IMG/VR virus record: IMGVR_UViG_3300047564_000244 | Span: 1 to 49,571 of that record | DNA length: 49,571 bases | Direction: 5' to 3' (one strand) | DNA from: a virus | In this document: positions 1 to 38,968 of the stretch, piece after piece | How positions within the stretch are numbered: the stretch's first letter is position 1 | How the letters are laid out: each line of letters begins with the position of its first letter | The notes under the pieces: generated by a model | Databases searched by the model: none | What the model was told of the DNA's origin: nothing | Seen by the model: only the letters and a program-made list of their open reading frames with translations | Made by a program: the position numbers and the translations under genes

Positions 1-54
1 TCTGATATTGAAGCTTATGAAAACAAGTGCCTTGTGGAGACGAAAGCAAAATGA
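1..54 (+). CDS. 3' end of an unidentified gene (partial)
   Basis: The first 17 codons are open and end in TGA at 52-54 (last residues LVETKAK). The stop overlaps the ATG of the next gene in an ATGA arrangement, which is how the following small genes are also joined. This makes it likely to be the tail of a real upstream gene cut by the window edge. Too little is visible to suggest a function. Confidence 0.45.
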   Translation, partial: SDIEAYENKCLVETKAK

Positions 55-299
55 ACGAGAAACTAAATGTAGCTATGCGCGACAAGTACTGGGACGAAAG
101 AAACGTAGATGAAAAAATAGATGCGCTCCATCAGGAGCTTGTGCAAACACGGTATCAACTAACAACAGCACTTTCATTGTTAGAAAAATTGTTAAACCAC
201 TCTCACGCAGATGGTTGTGTTGTCGTCCCTATCGATAGGAAAACTGAGCGCGAATATTACCTTCCCGTTTCTTTGCAGCATAACAAGGAGCCAAGATGA
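51..299 (+). CDS. small early phage protein, coiled-coil-like
   Basis: This encodes an 82-residue protein that I do not recognise. I place the start at ATG 51 because GGAGA lies at 36-40 with normal spacing and the start overlaps the upstream stop as ATGA. A GTG at 27 would add eight residues but has no such support. Residues about 18-50 are a charged, Leu-rich helix with a heptad look (IDALHQELVQTRYQL), so self-association is plausible. The stop overlaps the next start at 296, which places the gene in a translationally coupled early operon. No catalytic motif is visible. Confidence 0.7.
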   Translation: MNEKLNVAMRDKYWDERNVDEKIDALHQELVQTRYQLTTALSLLEKLLNHSHADGCVVVPIDRKTEREYYLPVSLQHNKEPR

Positions 300-976
300 A
301 CGACCTACGAAAAGCCGCGCAGCAGGCGCTTGAGGCGCTGGAAAAACTAGCAAAGGTTGAACATCCTTCTCATAAGGTGACATATAAAAAACCTGTGAAT
401 GGTCATATTGTGACTATCTACCCGCACAAGATTGCCGTAGATGCCATAACGCTATTACGCCAAGCCCTTGCCGAGCCTGAGCCACGCAATCAATGTGCAG
501 AAACCTGTGAGCGAGCCACGCTGTGTGCAATCTGTGCAGGCGGAATAACTGAACAAGAGCCGGTGGCGTGGATGGGCATAGACATTGAGGGAAATCCAAA
601 TAAGTTTCGATTGAATTTTTTTGGCGGGGCTATTCCGCTGTTTGTCAGAAACGAAGACAGAACCACGATTGCTGATAATGAAAAAGATGGATCGCCTTGT
701 CCTGAATTTTGGGATTGGTTGCCAAGAGCCTACAACTTCGATGGCGATGGCGTTTTCACAAAATACAACATGGAAGTTGCTTTTCTTGCTGGCAAACAAT
801 TTGCCGATGACGACGACACATCGCAAGAACGTGTCGATGAAACGGTGAAATGTAAACATGAATGGGTTGGGCTGACTGATGAAGATCGTAAAAGTTTTTA
901 CAAAAACGCCTATGCCATATCCGATGATGAGTTGATTGAAAGAGTCGAAGCCAAGCTGCGGGAGAAAAACACATGA
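296..976 (+). CDS. early accessory protein with PVAW motif, function unknown
   Basis: This encodes 226 residues. The N-terminal helix is Ala/Leu-rich (AAQQALEALEKL). A Cys-rich patch around residues 65-85 reads CAETCERATLCAIC and could bind a metal. It is followed by EQEPVAW. Such modular proteins, with an 'AAQQALEALE' head and a 'PVAW' segment, are familiar from phages of Burkholderiales and related bacteria, but their role is unknown. The C-terminus (VEAKLREKN) is encoded by DNA that also contains the GGAGAA ribosome binding site of the next gene. Both ends overlap neighbours by ATGA. The coding call is strong; no function can be given. Confidence 0.75.
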   Translation: MNDLRKAAQQALEALEKLAKVEHPSHKVTYKKPVNGHIVTIYPHKIAVDAITLLRQALAEPEPRNQCAETCERATLCAICAGGITEQEPVAWMGIDIEGNPNKFRLNFFGGAIPLFVRNEDRTTIADNEKDGSPCPEFWDWLPRAYNFDGDGVFTKYNMEVAFLAGKQFADDDDTSQERVDETVKCKHEWVGLTDEDRKSFYKNAYAISDDELIERVEAKLREKNT

Positions 977-1167
977 TTAGCTGGCTATCGAAAAAAACTT
1001 GTGATTGGTTTCATGCTGGCGGTGACATCAAACGTGACCCCTATGACCGAATTAACTGGCAATGCAGAACCTGCGGACGATGGGGTGAGCCTGTTGATCA
1101 ACAAACAGAATGGCTGATAACAGAGGCTGCAATCCAATCCAAGCTAAAGGAGAAGAACAAGTGGTAA
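973..1167 (+). CDS. small protein with a CxxC pair
   Basis: This encodes 64 residues. The ATG at 973 overlaps the previous stop (ATGA), and GGGAGAAAA just upstream serves as ribosome binding site. The middle contains NWQCRTCGRWG, a single CxxC pair that could form half of a zinc site or a redox pair. A few aromatic residues flank it. The C-terminus SKLKEKN resembles the end of the preceding protein, and the DNA encoding it (1140-1156) recurs at 1198-1214. Function is unknown. Confidence 0.65.
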   Translation: MISWLSKKTCDWFHAGGDIKRDPYDRINWQCRTCGRWGEPVDQQTEWLITEAAIQSKLKEKNKW

Positions 1168-1214
1168 ATATCGTAACAGGGCTACGACTGAAAGAAACAA
1201 GCTAAAGGAGAAGA
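1140..1214 (+). repeat. 17-bp direct repeat carrying a ribosome binding site
   Basis: The 17-base sequence CAAGCTAAAGGAGAAGA occurs at 1140-1156 and again at 1198-1214. The first copy encodes the end of the CxxC protein; the second is the untranslated leader of the next gene. A diverged third copy ends the PVAW gene (about 955-972). Each copy contains the GGAGAA Shine-Dalgarno of what follows. The 51 bases between genes (1168-1218) otherwise hold only a 14-codon GTG-initiated frame. Confidence 0.8.
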
Positions 1215-1218
1215 GCGC

Positions 1219-1575
1219 ATGAACACATATCCATTCGCAGGAGAAATCAAAATGGAAAAGGTAATCAAAGACGGTAAGGAAGTGATCGAGTGGGAGGGGA
1301 TTGATCTGACTCAAACAACCACGACATACACCTTCACTCCCCCTGGCAAAGAATGGGCACGTATCGACAAAGACATGAACGTCGTGCATCTAGACATGGA
1401 GCTATGTGCTAAAGGCCCACACAATGCTTACACAGCACTGGCACTTGCTATCTGGAACAAGGCGATTGCACAAGAGCGTGAAGCCTGCGCGAAGGTTTGT
1501 GAGGATCGTGAAAGAGCGAATCTGTACGGCGTGAAGGAATGTGCCGCCGCCATACGAGCAAGAGGTGAGCAATGA
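1219..1575 (+). CDS. small early protein with REACAKVCE / AAAIRARG motifs
   Basis: This encodes 118 residues. The ATG at 1219 follows AAAGGAGAAG at ideal distance. The N-terminal half looks beta-rich (KVIKDGKEVIEWEGI). The C-terminal half contains EREACAKVC and ends ECAAAIRARG, a tail shared by many small phage proteins of unknown role. The same AAAIRARG tail ends the next protein, encoded by an identical 20-base stretch. The gene overlaps the next start at 1572 (ATGA). No enzymatic motif is seen. Confidence 0.75.
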   Translation: MNTYPFAGEIKMEKVIKDGKEVIEWEGIDLTQTTTTYTFTPPGKEWARIDKDMNVVHLDMELCAKGPHNAYTALALAIWNKAIAQEREACAKVCEDRERANLYGVKECAAAIRARGEQ

Positions 1576-1750
1576 CCCAAGAAGAACTACACCTTCAAGC
1601 CGCAGCGTACGCTAACAAGCGCAAGGAGGCGTACTTGGACTATGTGAAAAAAGAAGAAAGGCTGAGCGAAGAAATGCTCGGCTGGATCTGGGTAGCACAC
1701 TACGAAGGGTGGAAGGACGCTATGGAAGCTGCCGCCGCCATACGAGCAAG
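1543..1750 (+). repeat. 20-bp direct repeat at the ends of two adjacent genes
   Basis: GCCGCCGCCATACGAGCAAG is present at 1543-1562 and 1731-1750. In both places it is read in the frame that gives AAAIRAR close to a stop codon. Identity at nucleotide level between otherwise dissimilar genes points to recent duplication or exchange at gene ends. Confidence 0.85.
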
Positions 1751-1763
1751 GGGAAACACATGA
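1572..1763 (+). CDS. small early protein with AAAIRARG tail
   Basis: This encodes 63 residues, mostly helical and Ala/Glu/Lys-rich. The middle carries WIWVAHYEGWKDA and the end is AAAIRARGNT. The ATG overlaps the upstream stop, so it is coupled to the preceding gene. Its tail is encoded by a repeat shared with that gene, so the two may be mosaic variants of one family. The role is unknown. Confidence 0.7.
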   Translation: MTQEELHLQAAAYANKRKEAYLDYVKKEERLSEEMLGWIWVAHYEGWKDAMEAAAAIRARGNT

Positions 1764-2713
1764 GCAAACCTTTACTCTCCCGTATCGCGTCGGGTGAATT
1801 TGATGTTGTTAAAACGCCAGGGAAACACTTTAATTTAAGTTATAGTAAAAATATATCTACTGATGGTGTAGAGATATTTGTTTTGTCTGATGAGTTGTCC
1901 TTGGCCGCGCAGACTTTGCTGAATTCACCTGAAAACGTAGTGCCGAACGATTTATCTACGCTACGGTTACCTTACAACAAAATAGCTATCGAGCTTAAAC
2001 AGACTGAAGAAGTAAAAGCTTTAAGAAGAAAACAATCTTCTACAAAAGAAGATGACCCTAGTCTATACCCAATATCGGTAACTGGAATGTTAATTACCGC
2101 TTATCCTGAGCATGGAAATACAATAACAATACAATCTTATTGGGAGTATGAAGGAATGAACAGTGTTGAAGTATCGATGATATGTTTGATACTCAACGCA
2201 CACGAAGCTATTAAACGAAATACTAGGACGGCAATAATTAAATACCCTTTCACTACGTTAGAGGTAGCGGTTCTACCTTCACCATATATAGTTTCTAGAA
2301 TGCTTGATAAAGATTTGCCAAGCATAAACCTAGACTTTTTTAAAGATCCAGATATTCTTTCTCAATTGATAAAGGAATCTTCAGATGAATTAACCACAAA
2401 TCTATTTGCGGCGCTGATGCTTATTAACTGCAAATCTGGCGTATCTGCAACACGTATATCAGGTAAAACTTTATCCCCTGCGTTCAGTAAAAAACTGAGG
2501 AAAAAACTTTCTTCGCCATCATATACAGTACTGTCAATATCCGAATCAGAATCAGTGACACCTACAGGAGTTGTATCCAGACGTTCAGATATATCAGCTC
2601 ACTATGTGAGAGGACATTTTAAATGTAGAAGAGGGGGTACGTACTGGTGGAACCCTTACATTCGTGGTAAAGGTGAAGTCCGTAAACGGGAAGCATATAG
2701 AGTTGTGGCATGA
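1760..2713 (+). CDS. conserved-looking phage protein of unknown function
   Basis: This encodes 317 residues. I choose ATG 1760 (MSKPLLSRIASGEF) because it overlaps the previous stop as ATGA and follows AGGGGAAA. A longer reading from 1709 would run across the preceding gene. The C-terminal block HYVRGHFKCRRGGTYWW, then NPYIRGKGE, is a motif I associate with uncharacterised phage proteins encoded near replication genes. It could be a small nucleic-acid-binding module rich in Arg and Trp. Base composition is visibly more AT-rich than in the neighbours (many ATA, TTA and AAA codons), which suggests a different recent origin. The stop overlaps the polymerase start at 2710. Confidence 0.75.
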   Translation: MSKPLLSRIASGEFDVVKTPGKHFNLSYSKNISTDGVEIFVLSDELSLAAQTLLNSPENVVPNDLSTLRLPYNKIAIELKQTEEVKALRRKQSSTKEDDPSLYPISVTGMLITAYPEHGNTITIQSYWEYEGMNSVEVSMICLILNAHEAIKRNTRTAIIKYPFTTLEVAVLPSPYIVSRMLDKDLPSINLDFFKDPDILSQLIKESSDELTTNLFAALMLINCKSGVSATRISGKTLSPAFSKKLRKKLSSPSYTVLSISESESVTPTGVVSRRSDISAHYVRGHFKCRRGGTYWWNPYIRGKGEVRKREAYRVVA

Positions 2714-4581
2714 ACCTAATAACATTAGACCTAGAAACTTTTTACAGTCAAGAAGTTTCACTGACCCGACTGACGACGGAGGAGTACGTCCGTCACCCTG
2801 AATTTGAAGTCATCGGTATCGGGGTTAAGATCAACGATGCCCCTGCTTATTGGATTTCAGGGTCGCGTGAAATGTTAAACAAGCATCTGAGATCCCTGCC
2901 TTGGCGGGACTCTATGCTCCTGTGTCACAACACAATGTTTGATGGCTCCGTGCTTGCCTGGACATTACAAATCTCTCCACAAAAATATCTTGACACACTT
3001 AGTATGGCTCGCGCCCTGCATGGTGTGGATGCGGGGGGTAGTCTCAAAGTCTTGGCCGAGCGGTATCAGATCGGGGTGAAAGGCGAAGAAGTTATCCATG
3101 CCAAGGGTAAACGCAAAGCTGACTTCACGCCCGAGGAGCTTGCACGTTACGGTGAGTATTGTGTCAACGATGTCGAGTTGACTTACAAATTGTTTGGGTG
3201 CATGGCCCACAAGTTTCCTGAGTCTGAACTAGACCTCATAAACTTAACCTTAAGAATGTACATTCACCCTGTGTTTACCGTGGATGAGAACCTTTTATTA
3301 GAAAGGCTAGAGGATGTGCGGGCGGAGAAGTCTGAACTTCTTGGTTCGCTAAAAGAAAAGCTGGGGTGCAATACCGAGGAAGAGGTAAGAAAAAAACTGG
3401 CATCAAATAAGCAGTTTGCGGAACTCCTAAAATCTTTTGGTGTAGAGCCACCGATCAAAGAAAGCCCGACCACGGGAAAGCCCACGTTCGCACTGGCTAA
3501 GAACGATGAAGGGTTCCTTGCGCTCACTGAACATGAAGACCCGTTTATTCAGCAACTCTGTGCTGTGCGTCTAGGCACGAAGTCAACTATCGAAGAGTCC
3601 CGCATCGAGCGGTTCATCGACATCGGTAAGCGTAATCAACGACGCTTGCCGATCCCACTAAAATATTATGGCGCACATACTGGACGCTGGGCGGGCCAAG
3701 ACAAGGTCAATTTCCAGAACCTACCTAGCCGCGACAAGAAGAAAAAGACTTTAAAGAATGCCGTTGTGCCATACCCCGGCCACTTCGTCATCAACTCAGA
3801 CTCATCGCAGATCGAAGCTCGCATACTTGCATGGCTGGCTGGGCAGACTGATGTGGTGGATGCCTTCGCTCAAGGCAGGGATGTGTACTCTGAGTTTGCT
3901 ACTAAAGTATATGGGCGCCCCATATCAAAAGAGAATCCTATAGAACGTTTTGTTGGAAAAACATGTATACTAGGACTCGGGTACGGGACAGGTGCGGCCA
4001 AGCTCCAGCATACTTTAAAGACTCAGCCGCCGGGGGCTGTCGTTGATGATGACGAGGCCAAACGCATCGTTGATTTATATCGATCAGAAAACGACAAGAT
4101 CATTGACCTGTGGGCTGACTGTGATGACTTTCTTGAGAATCTTATAAGCTGGCCTAAAAACAAGAAGGACTACTACATAGGAGTTCACGACTGCGTGACC
4201 GCTTGTCCAGAGGGCATACTTTTACCCAACGGCTTTTATCTGCACTACCCCGAGATCACCCGCGATACATCCGAAGCTAAATCTAGAATTGTTTATAAAT
4301 CGCGTAGAGGCCCAGTGTCTGTCTGGGGCGGCTCAATTGTTGAAAACATTGTTCAAGCATTAGCACGGTGTGTCATCGGAGAGCAGATGCTTTTGATCAG
4401 CGAAAGATACCGACCAGCACTGACTGTGCATGATGCTGTTGTAGTTGTTGTACCAGAAGATGAACTGGATGAAGCCGTTGCCTATGTCATAGAATGTATG
4501 AACACTAGACCAAGCTGGGCACCTGGGTTGCCTATCACATGTGAGGCTAAATATGGTTTATCCTACGGAGCGTGTGGATAG
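2710..4581 (+). CDS. family A DNA polymerase with 3'-5' exonuclease
   Basis: This encodes 623 residues, the phage replicative polymerase. The N-terminal exonuclease has Exo I (D7, E9 in LDLETF), Exo II (CHNTMFDG) and Exo III (YCVNDVELT). The polymerase has motif A (SDSSQIEARILAWLAG, near residue 364), motif B (R413, K417, L421, Y425 in RFVGKTCILGLGYG) and motif C (H574-D575-A576). There is no 5'-3' exonuclease domain, as usual for phage enzymes. Two deviations stand out. Leu421 sits where E. coli Pol I has Phe762, and motif C reads HDA instead of HDE. The metal-binding aspartates are intact, so the enzyme should be active. The gene lies in an operon with the nuclease that follows. Confidence 0.96.
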   Translation: MNLITLDLETFYSQEVSLTRLTTEEYVRHPEFEVIGIGVKINDAPAYWISGSREMLNKHLRSLPWRDSMLLCHNTMFDGSVLAWTLQISPQKYLDTLSMARALHGVDAGGSLKVLAERYQIGVKGEEVIHAKGKRKADFTPEELARYGEYCVNDVELTYKLFGCMAHKFPESELDLINLTLRMYIHPVFTVDENLLLERLEDVRAEKSELLGSLKEKLGCNTEEEVRKKLASNKQFAELLKSFGVEPPIKESPTTGKPTFALAKNDEGFLALTEHEDPFIQQLCAVRLGTKSTIEESRIERFIDIGKRNQRRLPIPLKYYGAHTGRWAGQDKVNFQNLPSRDKKKKTLKNAVVPYPGHFVINSDSSQIEARILAWLAGQTDVVDAFAQGRDVYSEFATKVYGRPISKENPIERFVGKTCILGLGYGTGAAKLQHTLKTQPPGAVVDDDEAKRIVDLYRSENDKIIDLWADCDDFLENLISWPKNKKDYYIGVHDCVTACPEGILLPNGFYLHYPEITRDTSEAKSRIVYKSRRGPVSVWGGSIVENIVQALARCVIGEQMLLISERYRPALTVHDAVVVVVPEDELDEAVAYVIECMNTRPSWAPGLPITCEAKYGLSYGACG

Positions 4582-4592
4582 GAGAAATTAGT

Positions 4593-5252
4593 ATGGAATC
4601 AGTTATCAATTGGTCTTACTCTCGTTTAAAAGATTTCATGGGTTGCCCACGTAGACACTACGAAACCCAAATCGCAAAGAACTTTCAACAGCCCTACACG
4701 CAAGCTCTACGCTACGGTAATGCAGTACACAAAGCTCTGGAAAAGTACGCTGTAGACGGTACACCTCTTCCAAACAATTACAAGCGATACCAAGGCTACG
4801 TCGATGGCATCTTGGAGATCGACGGCAACAAGTACCCAGAATATAAGATGGGGCTACTACCTAACCGCAAGGCATGTGACTATGAGGATAAGAACCGGTG
4901 GGTTCGTGGTATCGCTGACATGATCATTGTCGATGGTGACACGGCGCACATCGTGGACTACAAGACTGGCAAGGCCAACTACCCCGATCCTATGCAGTTA
5001 AAGCTCATGGGCTTGATGGTGTTCGCTCACTTCCCAGAGGTACTGAATATCAAGGCCGCGTTGTTCTTCATCATGCACAACGTCATAGTTGACGAAGCCT
5101 ACACAAGGGATCAAACTGATGATCTGTGGGCACACTTCACACCCCACCTTGCTCGGTGGGAAGAGGCTCACGCAACCAATGAATGGGTAGCTAACCCGAC
5201 TGTACTGTGCGGCTACTGTGCCGTGCGAACCTGTGAGTTCAATAGGAGTTGA
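4593..5252 (+). CDS. Fe-S PD-(D/E)XK nuclease, Cas4/RecB-like
   Basis: This encodes 219 residues. ATG 4593 is chosen because GGAGAAA (4581-4587) precedes it; an in-frame ATG at 4572 lies inside the polymerase. Nuclease motifs are H46 (GNAVHKALE), D109 (RGIADMI), D122-Y-K124 (IVDYKTGK) and a following QLKL helix. Cys18 (GCPRR) plus Cys206, Cys209 and Cys214 near the C-terminus match the four-cysteine iron-sulfur staple of Cas4 and AddB-type nucleases. In phages such enzymes process DNA ends during recombination or replication, and the position directly after the polymerase fits that. No CRISPR genes are nearby, so this is not part of an adaptation module. Confidence 0.9.
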   Translation: MESVINWSYSRLKDFMGCPRRHYETQIAKNFQQPYTQALRYGNAVHKALEKYAVDGTPLPNNYKRYQGYVDGILEIDGNKYPEYKMGLLPNRKACDYEDKNRWVRGIADMIIVDGDTAHIVDYKTGKANYPDPMQLKLMGLMVFAHFPEVLNIKAALFFIMHNVIVDEAYTRDQTDDLWAHFTPHLARWEEAHATNEWVANPTVLCGYCAVRTCEFNRS

Positions 5253-5253
5253 C

Positions 5254-5568
5254 ATGCCTTACGTTAACAAACCAAGGCCATACAAAAAAGAGTATCAGCA
5301 ACAAAAAGCTAGAGGTGAACATGCAAACCGCATGGAGCGACAACGAGCTAGACGAGCTGTTGACAAGCGCGGTAAGGATGCTGATCACGATGGTACGGCA
5401 GACGCAAGAGAAGGTAAGGATATCGCTCATCGACGCGCCCTATCAAAGGGAGGTACGAATGGAGATGGATACACAATACAATCTCCAAGTGCGAATAGAT
5501 CCTTTCGCCGTAACTCCAAACGACAATTAGTTTCGGAAACCAGCAAAAGAGAAAGAAAAAAGACTTGA
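5254..5568 (+). CDS. small basic HNH-related phage protein
   Basis: This encodes 104 residues, strongly basic. ATG 5254 follows AGGAGTTGAC and lies directly after the nuclease stop. The segment DADHDGTADAREGKDIAH, then RALSKGGTNGDGY and SANRSFRRN, resembles the core of small HNH-like phage proteins ('DH..pLskGG..n..NRS'). Here the HNH catalytic set is incomplete: the usual DHI/DH pair reads IAHRRA. It may therefore be a DNA-binding relative and not an active nuclease. A second frame over the same DNA is also open but is judged a shadow. This is the last gene before the promoter at 5565. Confidence 0.8.
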   Translation: MPYVNKPRPYKKEYQQQKARGEHANRMERQRARRAVDKRGKDADHDGTADAREGKDIAHRRALSKGGTNGDGYTIQSPSANRSFRRNSKRQLVSETSKRERKKT

Positions 5569-5592
5569 CATATTCAAAGTAGACCTTATAAT
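5565..5592 (+). promoter_or_regulatory. consensus sigma70 promoter
   Basis: TTGACA at 5565-5570 and TATAAT at 5587-5592 both match the bacterial sigma70 consensus perfectly and are separated by 16 bases. The -35 overlaps the last codons of the preceding gene. The start of transcription is expected near 5599. It would drive the non-coding interval and then the helicase to primase genes using host RNA polymerase; no phage RNA polymerase gene is visible in the window. Confidence 0.85.
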
Positions 5593-5598
5593 TTACTT

Positions 5599-5797
5599 GT
5601 ATTCCAGACGGGGGGCGTTTCTCGGCAGTTGGAACGTCATAGTCGTTAGGTGTGAGTGGACACCCCAAAAAACCGCATCAACTAGGCAGCGTTTACAGCT
5701 TTACATAGTGGAGCCTCCTGGCGTGTTAGGTCTAGTCGCATCGTCGGGGATTTTCCCCGACGCGTGCGTGACAAGTTAATTTAGTTATGGATAAGTT
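5599..5797 (+). ncRNA. candidate structured RNA or 5' leader
   Basis: This is the largest gene-free interval on the + arm (229 bases counted from 5569). It begins just after a perfect promoter and has no convincing reading frame. It can form several stems: GGTGT/ACACC around 5649-5664, AGTTG/CAACT (near 5628 and 5679), and a long 3' hairpin (5735-5772). ACTTGT (5595-5600) can also pair with ACAAGT (5771-5776), closing the ends. It could be an independent small RNA or a long regulatory leader of the helicase mRNA. I do not recognise it as a known RNA family. The structure is read by eye, not computed. Confidence 0.5.
5735..5772 (+). promoter_or_regulatory. strong hairpin ahead of the helicase gene
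   Basis: CGTCGGGGA (5742-5750), loop TTT, then TCCCCGACG (5754-5762) form a perfect 9-bp GC-rich stem. GTCGCA (5735-5740) pairs with TGCG-T-GAC (5765-5772) to extend it with small bulges. No run of T follows, so it is a poor intrinsic terminator. It ends 25 bases before the helicase start and could be the 3' end of a small RNA, a processing site or a translational control element. Confidence 0.75.
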
Positions 5798-7180
5798 ATG
5801 CAAGACTATAGTTGGCCCGGAATGTTCAAGCCGTTTGATCACCAAAAGACCACGGCAGAATTCTTAGTTGATAACCCACGGGCTTTCTGCTTCAACGAAG
5901 CAGGTACGGGCAAAACGTCATCGGTCATATGGGCCTGTGACTACCTGATGAACCAAGGCATCCTCAAGCGTGTGCTAATCATCTGCCCCCTATCCATCAT
6001 GTATTCAGCTTGGCAGTCAGACCTATTTAAGACTGCTATGCACCGTAGAACGGCAGTGGCCTATGGATCTGCGAGCAAGCGATCCAAGATCATCAACAGT
6101 AACTATGAGTTTGTCATCATCAACTATGATGGTGTAAATATTGTAGCCAAGGATATTTATAACGCTGGCTTTGATCTGATCGTTGTTGATGAGGCCAACG
6201 CTTACAAGACCTCAACAACATTACGCTGGAAAACACTCAAGGCTTTAGTCCTACCATACACAGGGTTGTGGATGCTGACAGGCACTCCTGCTTCTCAGTC
6301 GCCTGTGGATGCGTACGGGCTTGCCAAGCTAGTCTGCCCAGAGAATGTACCAAAATTTTTTGGAGCATGGCGCGACAGAGTGATGTTCCCCGTTACTAAA
6401 TTTAAGTGGTCGCCCCGCCCCGGCGCTAGAGATGTGGTCTACAAAGTATTACAACCTGCGATCAGATTCACTAAAGATGAGTGCCTAGATCTGCCAGAGG
6501 TCATGTATCAGTACCGTAGCGCCCCCATGACTGGACAACAGCAGAAATATTATTTATCACTTAAGAATGAACTGCTGATCAAAGCAGCGGGTGAGAAGGT
6601 CAGTGCAGTCAATGCCGCCGCTATGCTTACTAAATTGTTACAAATTTCTGGTGGAGCTGTTTACTCAGACAGCGGAGAAGTGTTAGAGTTTGACGTATCG
6701 CATCGCTTGCGTGTGCTTGAAGAAGTGATGGTTGAGACTGAGCGCAAAGTTATAGTCTTCGTACCGTATACGCACACGATTGAGCTTGTTCATAAACATC
6801 TTATCAAAGGAGGTTACACAGCAGAGATTGTCAACGGTCAAGTCAGCGCGGGTGAACGTGCTGCTATATTTTCTAGATTCCAAACAACGGATCATCCACG
6901 GGTGCTTGTTGTACAACCTCAAGCAGCGTCGCATGGCATCACACTTACAGCAGCAGATACGATTGTGTTTTGGTCGCCTGTCATGTCAGTGGAGACGTAT
7001 ATACAATGTGTAGCCCGTATCGATAGAGTAGGTCAGCAACACAAGATGACTGTCATACATCTTGAAGGTTCAGAAGTAGAGAGAAAGATGTACCGTATGT
7101 TGGAAAACAAAATTGATTTACATGAGAAGTTAGTTGAGTTGTATTCATCTGAAATGGAGGCTGAAAATGAATCTGAATGA
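5798..7180 (+). CDS. SNF2-family DNA helicase/translocase
   Basis: This encodes 460 residues. Motifs are Walker A GTGKT (36-40, in NEAGTGKTS), motif II D131-E-A-N (VVDEAN), motif III LTGTPA, and motif VI near residue 402 (QCVARIDRVGQQHK), the SNF2 class signature. Phages carry such proteins next to replication genes; they probably remodel DNA or displace proteins. The start at 5798 gives the typical N-terminus before FDHQKTT, but no Shine-Dalgarno is visible. The only nearby purine run is in an A/T-rich stretch behind a hairpin. The C-terminus overlaps the next gene by 14 bases. Motif II is DEAN where DEAH is usual. Confidence 0.92.
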   Translation: MQDYSWPGMFKPFDHQKTTAEFLVDNPRAFCFNEAGTGKTSSVIWACDYLMNQGILKRVLIICPLSIMYSAWQSDLFKTAMHRRTAVAYGSASKRSKIINSNYEFVIINYDGVNIVAKDIYNAGFDLIVVDEANAYKTSTTLRWKTLKALVLPYTGLWMLTGTPASQSPVDAYGLAKLVCPENVPKFFGAWRDRVMFPVTKFKWSPRPGARDVVYKVLQPAIRFTKDECLDLPEVMYQYRSAPMTGQQQKYYLSLKNELLIKAAGEKVSAVNAAAMLTKLLQISGGAVYSDSGEVLEFDVSHRLRVLEEVMVETERKVIVFVPYTHTIELVHKHLIKGGYTAEIVNGQVSAGERAAIFSRFQTTDHPRVLVVQPQAASHGITLTAADTIVFWSPVMSVETYIQCVARIDRVGQQHKMTVIHLEGSEVERKMYRMLENKIDLHEKLVELYSSEMEAENESE

Positions 7181-7604
7181 TGTTGTCAGTGCATTCATGG
7201 GCATTCGTGGAGAGCGGGAGAAGTTAGCCGCTACGTTTAAGTCCACGGACGAAGCACTGAAGGCACAACAAGTTGTGCTTGAGCAAGAGATGTTGAAGTT
7301 GTGTGCTGAACAAGGTGCAGATAGCATCCGTACCCCAAGCGGCACGATTAGTCGTAAGATTAAGTCACGGTTCCATGTCACTGACTGGAACAATTTTTAT
7401 GAATTCGTGATTGAGCAGAAAGCACCACAACTGCTTCAGAAGCGTGTTCATGAAACAAACTTTGAAGAATTTATGGTGGGGCGTGAGAAAGATGGTTTAC
7501 CCCCCGGCATAAACGTAGCCCGTGAGTACACTGTGACTGTGTACAAACCGACAAGCAGGGACGTGGTAATTACCCCCCCCAATTATGAGTTGTTAACCCA
7601 GTAG
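7167..7604 (+). CDS. conserved phage protein of the replication region
   Basis: This encodes 145 residues. ATG 7167 follows GGAGG at 7156-7160 and lies inside the end of the helicase gene. The N-terminal half is helical and charged (GEREKLAATFK, then DEALKAQQVVLEQEM). The C-terminal half has FEEFMVGREKDGLPPGINV followed by a short beta-like end. Proteins of this layout are common in phage recombination and replication clusters and sit before a putative ssDNA-binding protein, as here. I cannot assign a biochemical role. Confidence 0.75.
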   Translation: MNLNDVVSAFMGIRGEREKLAATFKSTDEALKAQQVVLEQEMLKLCAEQGADSIRTPSGTISRKIKSRFHVTDWNNFYEFVIEQKAPQLLQKRVHETNFEEFMVGREKDGLPPGINVAREYTVTVYKPTSRDVVITPPNYELLTQ

Positions 7605-7617
7605 GAGTTTAGTCAAA

Positions 7618-8442
7618 ATGAGTAATGATCTAGCAGTAGTACTTCAGCAAGCCGCCGTCGTAACCAAAGGTCTTGATGACGATACCAAAGCAGTTGCCGG
7701 TGGTATGCAAAACTTCAGGATCTCCATCGCTGGTGGAACCTTCCGCATGATTGTCAACGGCAAAGAGCAAGCCTCGATTGAAGATCGCAACATGAATGTG
7801 GTCTTTGTGAAGATGGCTCACAACCCATCTCGTACGTACTATGAAGGCACGTACAAGGAAGGTCAAAAATCTTCTCCCGTATGTTGGTCGTCTGACTCCA
7901 AGACGCCTGACGCAGAGGTACAAGACCCGGTGTCGCCTACCTGTGCCGCGTGTCCTAACTCGATCAAGGGTTCAGGCCAAGGTGGTACGGGTACAGCTTG
8001 CCGTATGTCTTGGCGTACTGCGGTTGTCCTGCCTCAACAGCTTGATGGCCCCGTGTATCAGTTGGTGCTTCCTGCAACATCTTCTTTTGGAGAAGAAGAA
8101 AATGGTCGCTGGCCCTTCCGTCCGTATATACAGATGCTTGCGTCCCATAATGTCAGTGCTGGGGCGGTGGTTACCAAGATGCAATTTGATACGAAGGCTA
8201 AGGTTCCGCGTGTACTTTTCTCTCCTTCGGGTGCGGTCGATACTGATGATCTTGAAGCCATCCGCAAGCAAGGTCAGGCACCAGCCGCCATCAACGCGAT
8301 TAAGATGACGGTTTACAAGTCAGACAAGGGCGAGGATAGTGAACCAACCAAGCGTGAGAGTACTCAACGTGCCGAGGTCGCGGCTACTAGCGACGGCACT
8401 GCCTCTGACCTTGTGAAGAAGTGGGCTAAGAAAAGTGCCTAG
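7618..8442 (+). CDS. Cys4 phage protein, possible ssDNA-binding role
   Basis: This encodes 274 residues. AGGAG at 7603-7607 precedes ATG 7618. Cys89, Cys109, Cys112 and Cys128 (VCWSSD, TCAACPNS, TACRMSW) form a likely zinc site. The surrounding region is beta-rich, and residues after about 215 are low-complexity and charged, ending in VKKWAKKSA. This CxxCPN-containing family is frequent in phage replication clusters. Its place between helicase and primase suggests a single-strand DNA-binding or replication accessory role, but that is inference. The end overlaps the next gene by eight bases. Confidence 0.75.
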   Translation: MSNDLAVVLQQAAVVTKGLDDDTKAVAGGMQNFRISIAGGTFRMIVNGKEQASIEDRNMNVVFVKMAHNPSRTYYEGTYKEGQKSSPVCWSSDSKTPDAEVQDPVSPTCAACPNSIKGSGQGGTGTACRMSWRTAVVLPQQLDGPVYQLVLPATSSFGEEENGRWPFRPYIQMLASHNVSAGAVVTKMQFDTKAKVPRVLFSPSGAVDTDDLEAIRKQGQAPAAINAIKMTVYKSDKGEDSEPTKRESTQRAEVAATSDGTASDLVKKWAKKSA

Positions 8443-38554: not shown

Positions 38555-38968
38555 TTAGCACTGCTCCGCCTTAACTTTATACGCATCCCACTCAGGAGCA
38601 TCTGCTGAAGCATAAAGATACTGGGCGGCAAACTCCAACAACATTGGGTCATCACGGAAATGCCCTAACCCTCTATTACAGTGATTGCAGAGCATCCCTC
38701 TTACTTCTCCGGTTACATGGTCATGGTCTACAACCAAAGGCCCGTTATCCCCACAAATAACACACTGTGTAACCGTGGCTTTTATATCCGCTAAAGCTTC
38801 GTCTGTAATTACATCACGAAACCGCCCACGACAGTTTGCATTTCGATACGTTGCACGACAACTACGGCACCAGCTATCTAAACCGTTACGCTTTTTGTTG
38901 TGTGGAGGGAAGAACTCAATTGTTTCTGGTTTTTCCTCTTTACAGCGTGTACAGGCTAGCATTTCCAC
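38555..38968 (-). CDS. endonuclease VII-like HNH nuclease
   Basis: This encodes 137 residues. The N-terminus has a Cys cluster (CTRCKEEKPETIEFF and WCRSC). The catalytic core CVICGD, LVVDHDHVTGEVRGMLC and NHCNRGLGHFRDDP is the recombination endonuclease VII pattern (T4 gp49-type). Such enzymes resolve branched DNA so that packaging can finish. Its location among virion genes fits, although some such HNH genes are mobile. ATG 38968 overlaps the end of the upstream gene. Confidence 0.9.
   Translation of the reverse strand: MEMLACTRCKEEKPETIEFFPPHNKKRNGLDSWCRSCRATYRNANCRGRFRDVITDEALADIKATVTQCVICGDNGPLVVDHDHVTGEVRGMLCNHCNRGLGHFRDDPMLLEFAAQYLYASADAPEWDAYKVKAEQC

Follow-up and report, generated by a model that had tools for sequence, protein, structure and literature searches.

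In T-even phages, the tail-fibre adhesin gp38 carries hypervariable segments that lie between conserved coding motifs, and these motifs let the segments swap. In mycobacteriophage Island3, the 3' ends of the neighbouring genes 67 and 68 have about 60 bp in common, their products have 18 related C-terminal residues, and recombination between the 3'-end copies explains gene gain or loss; short conserved boundary sequences are cited alongside this case in the section of the paper considered here (PMC3029335). Cluster K mycobacteriophages contain start-associated sequences (SAS, consensus GGGATAGGAGCCC), which are short repeats found directly before the starts of genes of differing phamilies and accompanied by inverted repeats in about half of the cases, according to the part of the account consulted (PMC3203893). 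Mosaicism of phage proteins at the level of domains has also been described, with fragments common to otherwise unrelated proteins and with ongoing shuffling (excerpted from PMC10684548), and Rad52-like recombinases of temperate E. coli phages are reported, in the excerpt considered, to carry out a relaxed homologous recombination that makes mosaics and tolerates divergence (PMC3945230).

We have analysed a stretch of viral DNA of 49,571 nucleotides (IMG/VR virus record IMGVR_UViG_3300047564_000244, hereafter the window) that contains an array of small genes with repeated ends. These genes adjoin replication genes and carry the translation start of the next gene, whereas gp38 is a tail adhesin. 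The array is like the Island3 case in having two adjacent small genes with a common 3' end; the Island3 section considered deals with one event in closely related phages, whereas two parallel families were found here in many contigs, and the window array adds an internal anchor, which would permit the exchange of cassettes smaller than a gene, and has the ribosome binding site (RBS) of the next gene in or beside the repeat (PMC3029335). SAS are not described as coding anchors or exchange points in the part of the account consulted (PMC3203893), whereas the window repeats are coding and have another sequence: comparison of the SAS consensus with them revealed differing sequences. Domain mosaicism is strongest in receptor-binding proteins, endolysins and polymerases in the portion of that work considered, whereas the window families are built from short pieces of small proteins with anchors conserved at the DNA level (PMC10684548); a fragment common to otherwise unrelated proteins was likewise found here. 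The likeness to the Rad52-like system, as described in the excerpt, lies in homology-driven mosaic formation (PMC3945230), and the scan of window proteins revealed no Rad52-like recombinase. The principle is therefore already known, but the sub-gene cassette scale was not found in print: a search of 5.39 million open-access papers with the anchor peptides gave eight, none of them a phage paper by title, and subject-level searches gave no account of the two families among the matches listed.

The initial annotation of this DNA had described a 17-base and a 20-base repeat at gene ends, and both were confirmed in the sequence as exact copies: the 17-mer CAAGCTAAAGGAGAAGA at 1140-1156 and 1198-1214, and the 20-mer GCCGCCGCCATACGAGCAAG at 1543-1562 and 1731-1750. 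In shuffled sequence, allowing up to three mismatches, the chance expectation was 0.00 matches for the 20-mer and 0.19 for the 17-mer, and two such matches to the 17-mer occurred in 2 of 100 shuffles. All genes of the array are encoded on the plus strand. Both 20-mer copies are read as GCC GCC GCC ATA CGA GCA AG. (AAAIRAR) at the 3' ends of the tandem genes 1219-1575 and 1572-1763, whose products end in AAAIRARGEQ and AAAIRARGNT, respectively. The first 17-mer copy is read as C AAG CTA AAG GAG AAG A (KLKEK) at the end of gene 973-1167, whose product ends in KLKEKNKW. The repeats at 1140, 1543 and 1731 thus stand at gene ends as proposed, but the one at 1198 is in another frame and comprises the stop of a micro-ORF and an RBS. 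A GGAGAA motif was indeed present in both 17-mer copies (1149 and 1207), and the diverged copy said to close the upstream gene was recovered as GCCAAGCTGCGGGAGAAAAACACATGA, the terminal sequence of gene 296-976, with 13 of 17 bases equal to the 17-mer. From 973 to 2713 every stop overlaps, or sits just ahead of, the following start, and a GGAG-type sequence occurs in the tail a few bases before that start. The proposal that the repeats double as ribosome binding sites was borne out for the 17-mer, which carries GGAG; the 20-mer alone is not an RBS, since the Shine-Dalgarno-like stretches AGAGGTGA and AAGGGGAA start in its last bases and extend past its end.

The repeats are the right-hand anchors of two modular gene families, which we have designated A and B. 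Genes of family A consist of an N-module, a left anchor (EREACAKVCE), a cassette and a right anchor (AIRARG), and genes of family B of an N-module, EWVGLT, a cassette and EAKLKEKN; in both, the stop overlaps the next start. Left anchors measure approximately 25-35 nt, cassettes roughly 12-45 codons and right anchors approximately 20-35 nt. Alignment of 31 chosen family A sequences gave the layout MxREDIIRMAREAG, variable, ERFAALVAAAEREACAKVCE, variable, CAAAIRARGxx, and 29 chosen family B sequences gave MxxRExxQxALxAL, variable, EQEPVAW, variable, PLYTAPPxREWVGLTDEE, variable, AIEAKLKEKNT. The families were counted in 295 loci, obtained by searches with the 20-mer, the 17-mer and the polymerase, together with the window; pair, cluster and seam statistics rest on the same set. 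In it, 145 of 161 AIRAR-type tails were accompanied by an EREAC-like anchor and 220 of 257 KLKEK-type tails by a WxGL anchor. Conversely, the strict tail A was found in 127 of 190 EREAC genes and the strict tail B in 211 of 347 WVGLT genes, several of the others having variants of the tail. No EREAC gene with a KLKEK tail and no WVGLT gene with an AIRAR tail occurred in this set. A natural A-B fusion was observed in a later contig (L299, 5653-5750, minus strand), in which one frame runs from AIRARG into a family B module (WVGLT...KLKQKN).

The window contains one complete mosaic gene of each family. The family B gene (296-976, 226 aa) was recognised by its EWVGLTDED and VEAKLREKNT motifs, by alignment with 28 family B proteins and by its patchwork matches. 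Its left anchor EWVGLTDED (860-886) is followed by the cassette RKSFYKNAYAISDDELIER (887-943) and by the right anchor VEAKLREKNT with the stop (944-976), which includes the diverged 17-mer copy and provides the GGAG for the gene at 973. This next gene (973-1167, 64 aa) has the family B tail KLKEKNKW and no EWVGLT anchor, and its product gave weak matches to phrog_36039 (0.13) and to NCBIfam HVO_0758 (0.027) and no Pfam match. The family A gene (1219-1575, 118 aa), identified by alignment with 30 family A proteins, comprises the N-module MNTYPFAGEIK...NKAIAQ (1219-1473), the left anchor EREACAKVCED (1474-1506), the cassette RERANLYGVKEC (1507-1542) and the right anchor AAAIRAR, which is the first 20-mer copy. 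It is followed by a 63-aa gene (1572-1763) with the family A tail formed by the second 20-mer copy and no EREAC anchor.

The repeats had been seen as junctions for small accessory genes, but the interval between the two 17-mers corresponds instead to a recurrent unit of a 14-codon micro-ORF, of which 25 further distinct sequences were found in the loci collected here. The upstream frame stops at once in 18 of the 25 units. Fourteen of these 18 have a GTG start, the 14 codons VVNIV(T/I)GLRLKE(T/S/P/L)S, a stop and then the RBS of the next gene, while three continue the same frame into KLKEKNQ, and the remaining one is L060. The other seven units are read through in the upstream frame as GGEYxNGATxERTxLxxEN. 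In the window, the candidate micro-ORF (1161-1205, VVNIVTGLRLKETS) would start at a codon overlapping the upstream stop and preceded by the GGAG of the first 17-mer copy, and would end directly before AGGAGAAG. Since this 14-codon frame is followed by a stop and by the RBS of the next gene, the second 17-mer copy represents the micro-ORF stop (AGC TAA) and the RBS for the gene at 1219, and not the end of a KLKEK gene; translation of the micro-ORF is presumed from its sequence.

The initial annotation had suggested searching phage databases for the two repeats, and both proved to recur widely. The exact 20-mer was found in 101 stretches of IMG/VR contigs, and in these loci all 105 copies, read in the AAAIRAR frame, were followed by a stop within 24-54 nt. 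The 17-mer was found in at least 120 stretches of IMG/VR contigs; among the matches listed, 142 of 153 copies had a stop seven or eight codons past the KLKEK start, and in 134 of those 142 the frame was open for at least 30 codons upstream. A looser pattern, consisting of EREACA, 36-66 bases and AIRAR(G) with free gap length, gave at least 120 matches. Among the matches listed from newly fetched loci, all 119 were in frame despite the free gap length, 97 of the 119 had the stop three codons past IRAR, and 107 of 118 distinct matches showed an NTGA stop-start overlap.

Comparison with these contigs resolved window positions 1-2760 into segments with differing best partners, most borders lying near starts and anchors. 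The best partners were L034/L062 for 812-882 (97%), L195 for 860-957 (99%), L172 for 1132-1214 (98%), L034/L062/L078 for 1219-1307 and 1351-1506 (84-87%), L016 for 1474-1562 (95.5%), L060 for 1580-1721, the N-part of the 63-aa gene (91%), and L219 for 1781-2760 (79%). Within the family B gene, matches on the left (L034, L062, L044) end at 882-885 and the match on the right (L195) begins at 860, so that they overlap in the left anchor; the rest of the gene gave no match to L195 outside 860-957. The family A gene showed the same arrangement: its N-module has nucleotide matches of 83-90% in L021, L034, L062 and L078, where it is joined to other cassettes, and these end at 1506, while the cassette matches begin at 1474 (1474-1562, 94-95.5% identity in L016, L017, L035, L046, L050 and L056, with another N-module). 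Positions 1474-1506 (EREACAKVCED) are thus common to N-module partners and cassette partners. L195 additionally contains window positions 1-58 (100% over 58 bases), and its 860-957 cassette stands in the other order relative to them, which may be read as a further sign of reshuffling.

The locus was also compared among relatives of the conserved neighbouring gene, which codes for a DNA polymerase A (2710-4581; PF00476, E 1.1e-32). The polymerase search led to 80 contigs being kept, and 20 of these were examined by inspection of their printed ORFs. Two of the 80, L218 (99%) and L219 (96%), had polymerase identity of at least 96%, and both carried different small genes upstream, again with KLKEK-type and AIRARG-like tails (in L218 the variant EILARGEKLT); the expectation that the repeats would accompany variable genes in related phages was therefore upheld in the closest relatives. 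Different small genes were also found upstream of the polymerase gene in L053 (97.7% over 266 aligned residues), a contig fetched by the 20-mer and hence guaranteed to have such a tail. In L053, the polymerase gene follows directly on AAAIRART and its stop; at this place the window contains an additional 317-aa gene (1760-2713; phrog_10678, E 6e-8), which is present in L219 and absent between the last tail and the polymerase gene in L053 and L218. Altogether, tails were seen in five of the 20 polymerase relatives examined (L218, L219, L220, L227 and L268), and in three of the 18 with an identity of 75% or less. A 41-base match to window positions 1128-1168 was noticed in L222, further upstream.

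In order to follow the parts separately, each gene was split into N-module, cassette and the 90 bases past the stop, and comparisons were made between different contigs, cassettes being regarded as the same at 85% nucleotide identity or more. After exact duplicates and genes with incomplete flanks were dropped, 152 distinct genes of 190 were compared for family A and 186 of 210 for family B. Family A gave 223 same-cassette pairs, of which 143 differed on both sides, seven matched on both, eight matched downstream only, one upstream only, and 64 were intermediate on at least one side. For family B the 285 same-cassette pairs were distributed as 207 different on both sides, six matching on both, eight downstream only, 14 upstream only and 50 intermediate. 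As a control, the same loci were searched for other ORFs coding for 80-400 aa, and these were treated in the same way (2702, reduced to 2425 distinct); here 936 of 1684 same-segment pairs matched on both sides and six differed on both, two of these six being family B genes missed by the exclusion pattern. Gene pairs in these counts are not independent, and removal of duplicates lowers the class matching on both sides, the control having been handled alike. Cassettes assort almost freely in both families, with a residual linkage seen as matching N-modules in 12 of 223 (A) and 24 of 285 (B) same-cassette pairs. The sample held 77 cassette clusters of family A and 115 of family B, and the seven clusters present in 8-17 contigs were each combined with 5-8 N-modules and 4-14 downstream sequences. 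The moving unit, which had been expected to be an accessory gene, is thus often a cassette of about 12-45 codons that extends from the internal left anchor to the gene-end repeat.

The position at which identity changes was then read from pairs sharing one part. In family A, the 44 pairs that share the N-module and differ in the cassette had an identity of 0.75-0.93 up to the EREAC anchor and of 0.56 at 24 nt into it, against 0.54 for unrelated pairs, whereas in the 93 pairs that share the cassette and differ in the N-module, identity stayed close to that of unrelated pairs as far as the left anchor and stood at 0.90 from the first anchor base onwards. At the family A right anchor, the 72 cassette-sharing pairs reached the unrelated level by 18 nt in, approximately at the end of IRAR, and the 72 pairs sharing the next gene rose above that level from about the first base (0.72 against 0.63 over the six bases that precede the anchor, and 0.84 against 0.67 over the first six within it). 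In family B, the 91 N-sharing pairs reached the unrelated level 12 nt past the start of WVGL, and in the 137 cassette-sharing pairs identity rose at WVGL; the N-side identity of only about 0.7 in this family probably results from the gap-free comparison of positions. Identity therefore switches inside the anchors, and short shared sequence at gene ends is flanked by unrelated parts on either side in different genomes, as in other boundary mosaics. Next genes also move between the families: 13 of 214 downstream clusters occurred after both A and B tails, and the first 45 bases after AIRARGNT and its stop in L054 were identical to those after KLKEKNT and its stop in L015 and L017. The idea that the repeats are junctions at which small genes are swapped with their translation signals kept was supported.

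Anchors are conserved at the DNA level at many positions. Codon tables were prepared from loci not selected by the repeat concerned, with codon usage in the same genes as background. Within EREAC, GCG reached 0.93 (background 0.24) and TGT 0.91 (0.41), and within WVGL, CTG reached 0.93 (0.23), GTT 0.80 (0.21) and GGG 0.78 (0.25). For the right anchors, the values were 0.91 (0.30) for GCA and 0.85 (0.11) for AGG in family A, from 53 genes among which, owing to the way the sample was drawn, none has the exact 20-mer, and 0.97 (0.24) for GCC in family B (44 genes). GCA and AGG were also found in 98 and 96, respectively, of 118 genes of the loose-pattern sample, which does not have that exclusion but requires AIRAR residues and GAG-CG in the left anchor. 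Other positions are near background, among them the Asn of KLKEKN (0.52 against 0.54), the Cys before IRAR (0.59 against 0.59) and the Ala before IRAR, and the Leu of KLKEK is encoded in part by CTG and in part by CTA. Since the left anchors have no RBS role, such a role alone is insufficient to account for the conservation of anchor DNA. Recent common origin through exchange can explain it, and the predicted helices and the ribosome binding site are other possible causes.

We consider it probable, at about three chances in four, that these genes are reassembled by homologous recombination at the short anchors in their coding sequence, and that selection retains products whose frames and starts are intact. 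According to this proposal, the modules of the small genes would always come in one order (start, N-module, left anchor, cassette, right anchor and a stop overlapping the next start, of the ATGA type), and the repeats would be recombination seams within coding sequence. Phages would meet by co-infection, and recombination between short anchors, presumably carried out by recombination enzymes, would swap cassettes, N-modules and next genes; selection may act on cassette diversity. The right anchor would carry, or lead into, the Shine-Dalgarno sequence of the next gene, and most products would be intact and translatable because both anchors are in frame and that sequence lies in or after the right anchor. 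The switch of identity inside the anchors in the contig comparison fits an exchange by homologous recombination within the sequence held in common. The window proteins scanned include a PD-(D/E)XK exonuclease and an endonuclease VII, but none could be recognised as an annealing protein. Joining could alternatively have been illegitimate and at random positions, only joints that keep frame and start surviving selection and the anchors playing no guiding part. This would suit the next genes, which swap between A and B tail contexts with little in common beyond the Shine-Dalgarno stretch and ATGA, a common sequence too short for one-step homologous recombination to explain such swaps well. We regard it as unlikely for the array in general, given that left anchors are shared at the DNA level by otherwise unrelated genes (GCG and CTG at 0.93) and that identity switches inside them.

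Three further explanations appear much less probable. Assemblers might have joined unrelated fragments at short repeats, and it is true that the pair statistics rest on metagenome contigs only and that the pieces are short and repeated. Nevertheless, the longest exact common run in pairs differing on both sides had a median of 53 nt in family A and 47 nt in family B; it was shorter than 77 nt in 109 of the 143 pairs of family A and in 171 of the 207 pairs of family B, and it reached 127 nt or more in three and two, respectively. Moreover, for family A genes in the 80 loci with a listed metagenome number, 15 of 84 complete combinations occurred in at least two metagenomes (four were recovered from three to five), and six family A pairs differing on both sides connect two such recurring combinations. 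Given this recurrence across metagenomes in family A, chimeras explain a small part at most, and they are very improbable as the general cause. Vertical inheritance, with anchors as conserved helices plus RBS and cassettes as fast-evolving loops, would involve no special exchange. A protein constraint is likely, as the two predicted helices that hold the family A anchors enclose most of the cassette; yet the same cassette, at 85-100% nucleotide identity, was found in unrelated N-modules and before unrelated next genes, including 18 (A) and 15 (B) such pairs at 100% cassette identity, which control genes from the same loci rarely showed, and same-cassette pairs with unrelated flanks recurred in independent samples in family A. 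This explanation is accordingly hard to maintain. A site-specific or integron-like system that recognises the anchors and moves cassettes could be imagined from anchors that are short, repeated and DNA-conserved. Their variation, with at least 12 forms of the 12-mer coding for IRAR, and the use of unrelated anchors in the two families speak against it, and the 28 window proteins put to Pfam included no integrase, no transposase, no other dedicated recombinase (in this one record) and no reverse transcriptase as in a diversity-generating retroelement; such a system seems very improbable.

The mosaic proteins tested gave nothing significant in Pfam, PHROGs, NCBIfam or PADLOC, and a protein of contig L366 gave a weak match to phrog_29405 (0.0039). 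The structural model of the 1219-1575 product had a mean pLDDT of 66.7 and was confident only from about residue 71. It showed a long helix (residues 70-98, with the left anchor at 86-96) and a short helix (105-114, with the right anchor from 109), most of the cassette (97-108) being placed at the turn between them, and it had no PDB match below E 5. The model of the 296-976 product had a mean pLDDT of 67.2, and its best matches in a viral library were uncharacterised proteins of uncultured phages, with E 5e-3 and above and low TM-scores. One may conjecture from the model that a variable tip borne on constant helices would be suitable as a binding loop. As the array adjoins replication genes, its proteins are probably early accessory proteins, and we would guess that the mosaic proteins meet variable host targets. 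Several other window genes were noted. The endonuclease VII gene (38558-38968, minus strand; PF02945, E 4.6e-17) lies amid apparent virion genes, and its product is perhaps a homing-type or resolving nuclease. Beside the exonuclease and helicase genes, 7618-8442 (plus strand) codes for a 274-aa protein (phrog_27714) with a CxxC pair and no PDB relative by sequence, for which a single-strand binding or annealing function is a guess. Also among the replication genes, 7170-7601 (plus strand) matched phrog_13900 (E 9e-22), labelled minor head protein, a label that may be wrong.

No isolated relatives were found in the phage collection, either by megablast with window positions 1-6000 or by tblastn with two window proteins and one L366 protein. 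A search of genome_contigs with an exact family B pattern of 23 bases yielded no match; a family A pattern yielded seven, corresponding to one isolate, Macromonas bipunctata DSM 12705 (Comamonadaceae), and six MAGs labelled Comamonadaceae (one), Burkholderiales (one), beta proteobacterium (two), Armatimonadota (one) and Bacteroidetes (one). In the isolate, contig 62 (L414) has a family A gene at 5621-5881 (minus strand), and ORFs nearby resemble plasmid partition proteins (ParA-like sequence, by eye); family A may therefore not be confined to phages, or may sit on a phage-plasmid. Genes were gathered by anchor scans and one polymerase search, so that abundance and diversity in this collection are not unbiased.

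More tentatively, and somewhat against the odds, the array may be part of a combinatorial library of uncultivated phages, perhaps of Burkholderiales, in which DNA-conserved coding anchors are kept as recombination sites and pooled cassettes are recombined. If so, cassettes would be dealt between constant parts, each product having a working translation start, and the library would amount to a viral equivalent of combinatorial receptor diversification, achieved through ordinary homologous recombination. Whether mosaic junctions of phages arise from short homology or from random joining followed by selection is an old question, and single junctions have often been the basis of the argument. The two families described here offer hundreds of junctions that can be compared, of two independent kinds and with a readable seam, frame and start, which makes the question testable by statistics and by a simple cross. 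The finding also suggests that many small orphan genes of phages are a recombined set of parts, for which classification by cassette would serve better than one by whole protein. Should the cassettes prove to be binders of host factors, their pool would be a candidate list of modules for host takeover or counter-defence.
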